In this document: positions 5,735 through 9,416 of the stretch, in pieces
Layout: each line of letters starts with the position of its first letter
Numbering within the stretch: the first letter of the stretch is position 1
NCBI GenBank assembly: GCA_030669595.1
Contig: DAOVDG010000004.1
Location: 1-37,638 of the forward strand
Direction of reading: 5' to 3'
Source: Candidatus Thorarchaeota archaeon
GTDB taxonomy: Archaea > Asgardarchaeota > Thorarchaeia > Thorarchaeales > Thorarchaeaceae
Length of the DNA stretch: 37,638 nucleotides
Made by a program: the position numbers and the translations under genes
Notes under the pieces: model-generated
What the model was told of the DNA's origin: nothing
Database searches by the model: none
The model's input: only the letters and a program-made list of their open reading frames with translations

Positions 5735-6361
5735 TTACTTACCAATTCGTATTTGAATCGCTGCCAGTATCTCTTCTGCTCTTTCAATATCACTTTGAAC
5801 TTCTGTCAGCTCTGTCTTGAGACGGTATGTATAACCCGATCTGTTACCATGTCTCTCCAGATGGGCTTCGCCGTTGCTCCACATTCGTGCAAGGTACGTT
5901 GATGCAGTGCTTTTCGGCAGGTCCTCCTCAAACGTAGATTCATAGATTTCTGCTACATCTAATGATGAGAACTTTCCATGTTTGAACGAAGCATAGATTA
6001 TCATCTGCATCTTCTCATAGTTGCTCATAGATTCATAGCTGATGTCTTCAAAATCAATATCTGCCAATTCTTCAACTGTTGGGGCAAATGTGCAGCCTGT
6101 ACTAGTTTCCAAAAACACCTTAAACTTTCCAACCATTTCTTCAGGGTTCCCTTTTACTTGGAAGCTTGATTCTTCTCCAGTCGATTCATCAGAAACCAGA
6201 ATCTTGAAGTCAAAAGGCGATTGAGTAAGTGAAAGAATCTTTTGAAACCGATTGAGAGCTTCATCTGGTCTGACGTACTTGCATTGAAAAATCTCGCGTA
6301 AACCAGGTCCAGAGCTGTAAGTGAACTCGTATACGTAATTGGTTCTTTCACCTTCTGCCAT
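5735..6361 (-). CDS. Winged-helix-type putative transcriptional regulator (ORF extends to 6394; ATG at 6361)
   Basis: C-terminal region MQMIIYASFKHGKFSSLDVAEIYESTFEEDLPKSTASTYLARMWSNGEAHLERHGNRSGYTYRL reads as a wHTH. Confidence 0.65.
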   Translation of the reverse strand: MAEGERTNYVYEFTYSSGPGLREIFQCKYVRPDEALNRFQKILSLTQSPFDFKILVSDESTGEESSFQVKGNPEEMVGKFKVFLETSTGCTFAPTVEELADIDFEDISYESMSNYEKMQMIIYASFKHGKFSSLDVAEIYESTFEEDLPKSTASTYLARMWSNGEAHLERHGNRSGYTYRLKTELTEVQSDIERAEEILAAIQIRIGK

Positions 6362-6394
6362 GATTCTAGCACACTCCAAATAGGGGACCCACAC

Positions 6395-6841: not shown

Positions 6842-7852
6842 TCAAAGGGGAATTAGGTAATCATCCCAGTTTTCTCCAAGCACTAACTGACTGAACTCTT
6901 CTCCAGACCTTCTATCTGCAACGGATTCAAGTCGCCCTTTGGCTTCCACATCCATTCCCTTTGAAACCTGCTCTGTGAAACGTCCTCGGTAGCTCACAAG
7001 TCTTCTTAGATTGCCAAATCTATTGCATTGAACTCCATACGCACACGGAGTAAAGATTGAATCATGATCATCAGTCACATGACACTTGACTATTAGCGTT
7101 CCTTCATTATGAATCTCAAAGTCCTCATACTCATATCCAATCTCATCCGGTGATTTGACCATCCGAATGAAGAACTCGTACCCGCCGAAAAGTCCCTGTA
7201 ACACCTTTTTTGATTCGACCTTCCGCAAAACATCACACCATCGAGGATTCTCACCCCATCTGAATTTTACATGCTTATCCAGTAGCTCGTCCGCATACCA
7301 ACCCAAATCTCCAATCGCATGAAACTGCTCCTTCAGAATGGAATATACCTTTCTAGCCGACTTTTCACCATAAATTACGAGGTCAATGTCAGATTCACTT
7401 GAGGCAAGCCCAACCAGTTGAGACCCTGTAAGCCCAATGGCTTCCCATTCAATCCCCGTTGCGTCAATCAATGTTTGGACCAAATCCAAGGACGCCTGCT
7501 GCAATGAGCTTGAATGTCGCTCCATATCTCTAAACTGACGCAGACAGTCAACTGGGTTAAGAGCAAATGCAATCCTATTCAAGGGAACAGCCTGCAAAAG
7601 CCGTCCACGGGTTTCATCAAACCAGAGGTATTCGCTATGCATTCTTTGTAGATAATCTTCACGTTTTTTCAACGAAGTGATTTTTCTATATCGAACCCCA
7701 TTTGAAGAAATGCGATTTCCATCCTGGGTGGGCAAATATCTCAGGTACGCTACTAATCGATTCTTGGGATGAATATCGCCTTTAACCTCAAAGATGTGAT
7801 CATCATCGGTAACAAGGAAAAACCCTTCAACAGCTTGGAGATTCAATACCAA
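6842..7852 (-). CDS. Predicted nucleotidyltransferase (COG2413-like, Pol beta superfamily)
   Basis: GLTGSQLVGLASSESDIDLVIYGEKSARKVY (GS..x..DxD motif). Confidence 0.75.
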   Translation of the reverse strand: MVLNLQAVEGFFLVTDDDHIFEVKGDIHPKNRLVAYLRYLPTQDGNRISSNGVRYRKITSLKKREDYLQRMHSEYLWFDETRGRLLQAVPLNRIAFALNPVDCLRQFRDMERHSSSLQQASLDLVQTLIDATGIEWEAIGLTGSQLVGLASSESDIDLVIYGEKSARKVYSILKEQFHAIGDLGWYADELLDKHVKFRWGENPRWCDVLRKVESKKVLQGLFGGYEFFIRMVKSPDEIGYEYEDFEIHNEGTLIVKCHVTDDHDSIFTPCAYGVQCNRFGNLRRLVSYRGRFTEQVSKGMDVEAKGRLESVADRRSGEEFSQLVLGENWDDYLIPL

Positions 7853-7875
7853 TCAGAAACACCAACCATAGCACG

Positions 7876-9126
7876 ATGTTAAAAACGTGTAGCAAGCGAT
7901 GTCAAACCATGCCAATCAATCCGGATGATGTGAAGAAGGAATTTGGCATCTATGACGACAATCCAGACCTTGCCTATTTCGATTCTGCAAGTACCACATT
8001 GGTTCCAAAGACTGCCATAGATGCGGTGACCACGTTTCTAATGTCAACAGTGGTGTCTTCACGACGTGGAGCCTACAAACTAGCAGTCAATGGAAGTGCC
8101 ATCGTCGAAGACGTTCGTGCAAAGCTTGCCACATTCCTAAACACTGACAAGGTGCAGGTTTCCTTTCAAAAGTCAATTCCATCAGCAGTTGCTTCTCTTG
8201 TGTATGGCTATGATTGGAAAAGGGAACAACGAAACAAAATCATCGTTTCACAGAGTGAGGAACATTCAGTATTAGTTGCACTCTTGAGAGCAGCCCAAGT
8301 TCTCAATCTTCAGGTCGAAACAATCCCCGTAGACAAGAACGGTATTCTAAACATAGAAGCGCTCAAGGATACAGTCGACAAGAAGACGGGAGTTGTCGCA
8401 GTTGGTCATGTGACTGTTGGCATCGGTGTGTCCAACCCAGTTGAAGAAGTCGCAAAAATCGCCCACGAGAACGAATCCTTGCTCCTGACTGATATCTCGC
8501 GTTCTGTTGCTTTCCTTGATACACCACCTACCTCACTCAAGGCGGATATTCTGCTATTCTCAGGTAACATTGGATTAATGGGCCCTCCAGGTTTCTCAAT
8601 ACAATGGACCACAAAGACACTAGGCACCAAACACATCCCTGGAATCTTTGGGGGATCTTCAGTGGCAAACGTTGAGAAAGCATCATTCGAGTCCTCATTT
8701 CAACCTGACAAGTTCGAATCCGGAACAATCAATGTTCCTGCTATTGCTGGCCTGGGAGCAGCAATCGATTATCTATCCCATCTCCATCAAAATGGCTTTC
8801 ATAGCCACATGAGGATAATCTCCCGTCATATGGCTGATCGACTGAATGACATGAAATGCTTGACTGTATATGGTACACCAAACGACAGAAACACCATCTT
8901 CGGTTTCAACCTACGAAGCGACGGCAGCATGAGCTGTCATGATGTCGCTCTCTTTCTGGATGAGTCCGATATAGCTGTAAGAAGTGGATTTGTCTGTGCC
9001 CATCCTCTAATCAAGTCTATATCTTCGGAAGGAGTTGTACAAGCCTCCTTACATGTCTACAATTCCATTGAAGAGGTCGATCGTCTGATGGACGGTCTCC
9101 GTTTGATATGCAAGCATTTTCTCTGA
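7876..9126 (+). CDS. Cysteine desulfurase-like (class V aminotransferase fold) protein lacking the PLP-binding lysine
   Basis: YFDSASTTLVPKTAIDAV; DILLFSGNIGLMGPPG in place of FSGHKxxGPxG; RSGFVCAHPL. Confidence 0.8.
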   Translation: MLKTCSKRCQTMPINPDDVKKEFGIYDDNPDLAYFDSASTTLVPKTAIDAVTTFLMSTVVSSRRGAYKLAVNGSAIVEDVRAKLATFLNTDKVQVSFQKSIPSAVASLVYGYDWKREQRNKIIVSQSEEHSVLVALLRAAQVLNLQVETIPVDKNGILNIEALKDTVDKKTGVVAVGHVTVGIGVSNPVEEVAKIAHENESLLLTDISRSVAFLDTPPTSLKADILLFSGNIGLMGPPGFSIQWTTKTLGTKHIPGIFGGSSVANVEKASFESSFQPDKFESGTINVPAIAGLGAAIDYLSHLHQNGFHSHMRIISRHMADRLNDMKCLTVYGTPNDRNTIFGFNLRSDGSMSCHDVALFLDESDIAVRSGFVCAHPLIKSISSEGVVQASLHVYNSIEEVDRLMDGLRLICKHFL

Positions 9127-9146: not shown

Positions 9147-9416
9147 CTAACCGAGGCTGAAGACTGGAGGATACATGACGAAGTACTGAATTATAATTGC
9201 CAGAAGTATGCCGCTAAACACTAGTCCTTTACCTCTCTTCATATTGGCTTCTGTAAACCATAGTATCGCTCCGATGAGCACAATAACGCTCGCCGAAACT
9301 CGGCCAATAAAAATCAGAAAGTCCCATATTTCGTTAAAATACCCTGCAATGAGAATCGCGAAATCTGTAAGTGGGCTTAGCAACTCGAAGAACATTGGCT
9401 TCTCACAGTAGTCCAC
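9147..9416 (-). CDS. Small two-TM membrane protein, VirB2/TrbC-like topology (hypothetical)
   Basis: FLIFIGRVSASVIVLIGAILWF-TEANMKRGKG-LVFSGILLAIIIQYFVMY: two hydrophobic helices with a short basic loop; GTG start at 9416 or ATG at 9395. Confidence 0.6.
   Translation of the reverse strand: MDYCEKPMFFELLSPLTDFAILIAGYFNEIWDFLIFIGRVSASVIVLIGAILWFTEANMKRGKGLVFSGILLAIIIQYFVMYPPVFSLG

Follow-up and report, generated by a model that had tools for sequence, protein, structure and literature searches.

The window, meaning here the whole 37,638-nucleotide stretch of Thorarchaeota DNA that was analysed, carries a gene for a protein resembling a cysteine desulfurase in which the lysine that binds PLP appears to be replaced, transcribed divergently from a nucleotidyltransferase gene. 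The locus raises the question of what a desulfurase-like protein could do once it has lost this residue, and whether the nucleotidyltransferase is its partner. A sequence-only reading had predicted a pseudoenzyme or altered chemistry (sulfur carrier or scaffold), with the two genes possibly linked in function, for example in tRNA or cofactor sulfur chemistry.

Family assignment and gene start

The protein belongs to the Aminotran_5 family (Pfam, 247.8 bits), and among all NCBIfam models the one for SufS, the group II cysteine desulfurase (TIGR01979), scores best, at 252.5 bits, without reaching its curated cut-off of 475.1. Its best PDB sequence matches are SufS chains, and homology to Bacillus subtilis SufS extends over the full length (phmmer, 180.9 bits). 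An AF2 model, which was built from only eight sequences, is of low confidence in two stretches (residues 1-59 and 242-274) and supports the fold only, reached a pLDDT of 70.8; with this model Foldseek ranked SufS structures first (TM 0.75 to Escherichia coli SufS). Fold, full-length homology, the Cys loop and the equivalent of Arg359 are common to SufS and the SufS-like protein, whereas the latter is without the Schiff-base lysine, the histidine before it, most PLP contacts and the carboxylate-binding arginine.

As first delimited, the open reading frame (7876-9126, + strand) encodes 416 aa. In the orthologue alignment, two sequences from the same genus show in-frame stop codons between 7876 and 7909, within the first ten codons of that frame, and because these stops lie upstream and positions 7874-7894 form an invariant block, ATG 7909, and not 7876, is probably the start; residues are numbered from this methionine. 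With this start the gap between the divergent genes is 56 bp, so that the divergent arrangement described earlier stands and its spacing of about 24 bp does not. The features of the locus are collected in Table 1.

Table 1. Coordinates of the SufS-like gene, its conserved segments and its neighbours in the window.
Feature	Positions	Strand	Remarks
Divergent nucleotidyltransferase	6842..7852	-	336 aa; NTP_transf_2; GS..SD.D motif invariant
Intergenic region between divergent starts	7853..7908	.	7874-7894 (CGATGTTAAAAACGTGTAGCA) identical in seven genomes
Lys-less SufS-like protein	7909..9126	+	405 aa; Aminotran_5 match; SufS best PDB chains; probable start, from orthologues
Segment SGNIGLMGPPGF in place of SxHK..GPxG	8560..8595	+	residues 218-229, Lys-free
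Cys343	8935..8937	+	second Cys, invariant in the Thorarchaeota family only
Cys loop RSGFVCAHP	8980..9006	+	residues 358-366; Cys363 codon 8995-8997 invariant
QASLH	9040..9054	+	residues 378-382; Gln378 at the former carboxylate-binding Arg; His382 nearly invariant
89-aa hydrophobic protein	9147..9416	-	convergent neighbour; missing with the pair in two genomes

Loss of PLP-binding residues

Codons 8560-8583 (tca ggt aac att gga tta atg ggc) read S G N I G L M G where SufS has S-x-H-K, and the segment as a whole (SGNIGLMGPPG against ..HKMCGPTG) has one residue more than its counterpart in classical SufS, that of B. subtilis included. Two relatives from other Asgard genomes that contain the His-Lys pair (HK; L133 and L228) have a segment of the same length, HKGPLGPPG, and this register places Asn220 at the His position and Ile221 at the Lys position, indicating that His was replaced by Asn and Lys by Ile. 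In a position-by-position table of 36 Thorarchaeota (Thor) sequences and 18 Lys-less members from outside Thor, in E. coli SufS numbering, neither His225 nor Schiff-base K226 is present in any of the 36 Thor sequences, the His position being Asn in all of them. The absence of the lysine from the FSGHKxxGPxG segment, first noticed in the one gene, is thus a conserved property of the Thorarchaeota homologues, and sequencing error or chance is excluded as its cause. The source MAG is 84.59% complete, which could leave room for a sequencing error, a strain artefact or a decaying pseudogene; this explanation was rejected and is given practically no weight, as the losses are common to 36 homologues, the frames are open and same-genus dN/dS values are well below 1 (0.10-0.24, 21 pairs), placing the gene under purifying selection.

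The remaining contacts with the cofactor have largely gone as well. In the 36 Thor sequences the equivalent of the PLP-stacking H123 is Glu or Asp, that of N175 is Val or Pro, that of Q203, which contacts PLP-O3', is Arg in 86%, and that of the carboxylate-binding R379 is Gln in 100%, while the positions of the phosphate cup (T94/T95/E96/N99) carry other residues, which vary. The Asp that contacts PLP-N1 (D200) is retained in 94%, so that weak cofactor binding is conceivable, and on this ground the protein might be considered a PLP enzyme still, holding its cofactor non-covalently or through another lysine. That is very improbable given the joint loss of the stacking His, Gln, Asn, phosphate cup and carboxylate Arg. 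A search for a substitute Schiff-base lysine also led to rejection of this candidate: no alignment column of the Thor family reaches 90% Lys, and the highest, K268 (86%), sits in a KFE segment that is common to SufS. Loss of PLP catalysis across the family is strongly supported at the sequence level, in keeping with the pseudoenzyme or altered chemistry that had been predicted.

The conserved thiol end of the former active site

The RSGFVCAHP loop had been described as retained, and it is present with its cysteine. Both the persulfide Cys364 and Arg359 of SufS are kept in the Thor family, the former (Cys363) in 100% and the latter (Arg358) in 97% of the 36 sequences, and position 383 of the E. 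coli enzyme (His382) is His in 97%. In addition, Cys363 and His382 are invariant in 18/18 of the non-Thor members tabulated. The alignments therefore show an old active site of which the PLP/phosphate end has decayed, whereas the thiol end (Arg358, Cys363, Gln378 and His382) is strongly constrained.

Such a pattern could reflect a new enzyme, in which Cys363, His382 and Gln378 form a thiol catalytic site of a transferase or hydrolase, possibly acting on a substrate activated by the nucleotidyltransferase. The invariance of Cys363, the near-invariance of His382 and Gln378 in Thor and the intact GS..SD.D motif of the neighbouring nucleotidyltransferase would fit this proposal; however, Gln378 is Arg in one third of the non-Thor members, and His382 also occurs in the HK-containing L133 and is consequently not tied to the loss of the lysine, making the proposal an unlikely one.

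Distribution and origin of the Lys-less branch

A profile search covered 228 genomes of the phylum, after which selected loci were read. Orthologues of the gene in family f1 have identities of 37% to 91%, and further Lys-less SufS-like proteins were found, in the selected loci, in Asgard families f3, f17, f18, f19, f20, f23 and f26; the f26 sequence (L134) diverges strongly and is masked in part, which leaves its placement unsure. In both of two maximum-likelihood trees, the second with the three longest-branched rows left out, a single branch (100/99) parts the Lys-less proteins from HK proteins, also when an IscS outgroup is included. L133 comes out as sister to the Lys-less clade, with weak support (85/71). 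Both L133 and L228 have in common with the SufS-like protein the one-residue insertion and the His at 382, but retain the equivalents of His-Lys, Gln203 and Arg379, and are presumably PLP users. Since L133, with its HK, already has the insertion and His382, these two features probably preceded the loss of the lysine. By these phylogenies, the Lys-less proteins are a large, old branch on the SufS side of the cysteine desulfurases. Several of the genomes with Lys-less proteins also hold a separate HK-containing SufS gene; such genes are present in Thor genomes (L001, L158-L160) and in the Heimdallarchaeota genome (L207).

Outside the Asgard archaea, the SufS-type proteins in the 32 best loci from 194 genomes of a DHVE2 archaeon's phylum and 200 of a gammaproteobacterium's phylum all have HK, and viral contigs gave a single distant match, with HK retained. 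A search of one literature collection found no paper on Lys-less SufS in Asgard archaea. One genome (G031) holds two copies of the Thor gene on contigs C192 (L075) and C288 (L074); one copy is 89% identical to that in the window and lies on a 3.2-kb contig, which is probably a contaminant that stems from the genus of the window.

Two neighbouring Lys-less copies occur in 13 genomes of the Heimdallarchaeota-type family f18, with Gln at position 378 in one copy and Arg in the other. SufS-type enzymes are dimers, and the paired copies suggest hetero-oligomers, raising the speculation that the protein is a structural pseudoenzyme which pairs with, or docks instead of, the canonical SufS (in Heimdallarchaeota, a Lys-less twin) and regulates sulfur flow, with Cys363 serving folding or docking. 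This is doubtful, as the thiol region of the old active site ranks with the best-conserved parts of the protein, beyond what would be expected of a mere dimer partner. In the f18 loci a gene whose product matches Pfam ARPC4 (Arp2/3 subunit) and one for a 148-aa orphan adjoin the Lys-less SufS genes divergently (L118:4020-5024), an arrangement that has the same place in L117, L119, L120, L122, L124 and L130 and is kept in seven loci. In f3 and f23, an endonuclease V gene follows the Lys-less SufS gene (L112:6639-7331, identified by Pfam match; L113:5478-6164 and L111:4762-5463, by similarity).

The divergent nucleotidyltransferase

The neighbouring protein, which we take to be COG2413-like, shares the NTP_transf_2 domain (23.9 bits, against a Pfam cut-off of 21) and the GS..SD.D motif with COG2413-type nucleotidyltransferases, and its motif residues G143, S144, D155 and D157 (GS, DxD) are invariant. 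Its profile had no match in the PDB, its AF2 model has a pLDDT of 32.8, and the search of one literature collection found no paper on COG2413.

The SufS-like and nucleotidyltransferase genes lie side by side in all Thor loci of sufficient length, and the pair stays together in three loci (L061, L064 and L074) despite altered surrounding gene order. Across f1 genomes the two are also either both present or both absent, contig ends excepted. Nine Thor genomes are without the pair; seven of these are uninformative because the flanking gene is missing too, while in the other two, which are near-complete (G016, 99%; G026, 96%), the gene immediately after glmS is the orthologue of that at 5735-6394, and the pair and the 89-aa gene are gone. 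Conservation of the pairing, which had been put forward as a check on the functional link, is borne out by the three rearranged loci and by the joint absence at an intact site. The flanking gene at 5735-6394 (-) is itself conserved, with a product that is 96-98% identical within the genus; neither it nor the gene at 9147-9416 (-) has a Pfam match. The 21-bp block at 7874-7894 holds the sequence TTAAAAA, some 26 bp from ATG 7909, and may belong to a promoter that the divergent pair shares.

Other Lys-less SufS-like genes, outside Thor, have different neighbours, and the nucleotidyltransferase partner is specific to Thor. Relatives of the nucleotidyltransferase occur in other Asgard genomes, where in several cases they are not divergent from a SufS-like gene as in Thor but in tandem beside pterin-pathway-type genes: in L197, L198, L202, L204 and L205, tandem nucleotidyltransferases lie by genes for GCHY-1 (GTP cyclohydrolase), Pterin_bind/DUF6513, a flavoprotein, a GHMP kinase, DUF1464 and CooT-like proteins. 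These neighbours suggest, as a lead only, that the nucleotidyltransferase family has a part in the metabolism of pterin or methanopterin. No tRNA-thiolation genes were seen beside the relatives in other Asgard genomes.

Possible function and significance

The reading that is preferred here, with a probability of roughly 0.5, is that the protein is an ancient non-PLP paralogue of SufS with a repurposed thiol pocket, probably a persulfide or metal site that works with the nucleotidyltransferase. The SufS fold is kept, but an internal aldimine could no longer form, PLP would probably be unbound, and sulfur could then not be released from cysteine by the normal route. Cys363 would be the working group, either accepting a persulfide or serving as a site for a metal, a cluster or a small ligand, with the SufS body as a docking platform. 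In Thorarchaeota, where the two genes are linked, the protein may act together with the divergent nucleotidyltransferase, possibly in a physical or functional complex, and desulfuration in the same cell would be left to the product of the separate HK-containing SufS gene. Several observations weigh against this preferred reading: the residue losses are known from sequence, with a structural model of limited depth; the PLP-N1 Asp is retained and His382 occurs in an HK-containing protein; and the partner is confined to Thor, with the 89-aa gene also missing from the empty site. A broader proposal, more tentative, is a single-origin, Asgard-wide family in which the PLP pocket became a cofactor-free Cys/His thiol site, for new chemistry or as a metal or persulfide carrier. 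In Thorarchaeota such a protein would act with the nucleotidyltransferase; in Heimdallarchaeota, two unlike subunits would form a pair.

If the preferred reading is true, the archaea closest to eukaryotes possess, next to their normal SufS, a paralogue that is old, strongly conserved and without PLP. Annotation by homology would likely name such genes cysteine desulfurases, and the sulfur-mobilising capacity of these genomes would be overstated. The family would also offer a clean test case for the use of the SufS body with a thiol and without a cofactor, and would supply a possible partner to a family of archaeal nucleotidyltransferases that is uncharacterised.

Comparison with archaeal IscS proteins that lack the lysine

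The IscS of Archaeoglobus fulgidus (AfIscS) has no catalytic lysine and no desulfurase activity, and gives a cysteine ligand to the IscU cluster; IscS1 of Methanosarcina acetivorans is likewise without the lysine (PMC7585200). AfIscS (4eb5), IscS1 and the SufS-like protein all have an archaeal cysteine-desulfurase fold from which the lysine is gone and in which the cysteine is kept. By comparison of the proteins, the Lys-less IscS of Archaeoglobus is the closest precedent with an experimental basis, on a different branch: AfIscS belongs to the IscS branch, has Asp at the Lys position and works with IscU, whereas the SufS-like protein, which has a hydrophobic residue there, is separated from IscS by a 100/100 branch and lies with SufS. 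The AfIscS-type motif SSNDIYGP, with Asp at the Lys position, is absent from the SufS-like protein, which has SGNIGLMGPPG instead, and no iscU lies beside its gene, the neighbours being the nucleotidyltransferase and the 89-aa gene. On another contig of the same genome (C159, 2014-4236), genes for TusA, an AfIscS-type IscS (SSNDIYGPRG) and IscU lie in a row, and this IscS represents a second, unrelated loss of the lysine.
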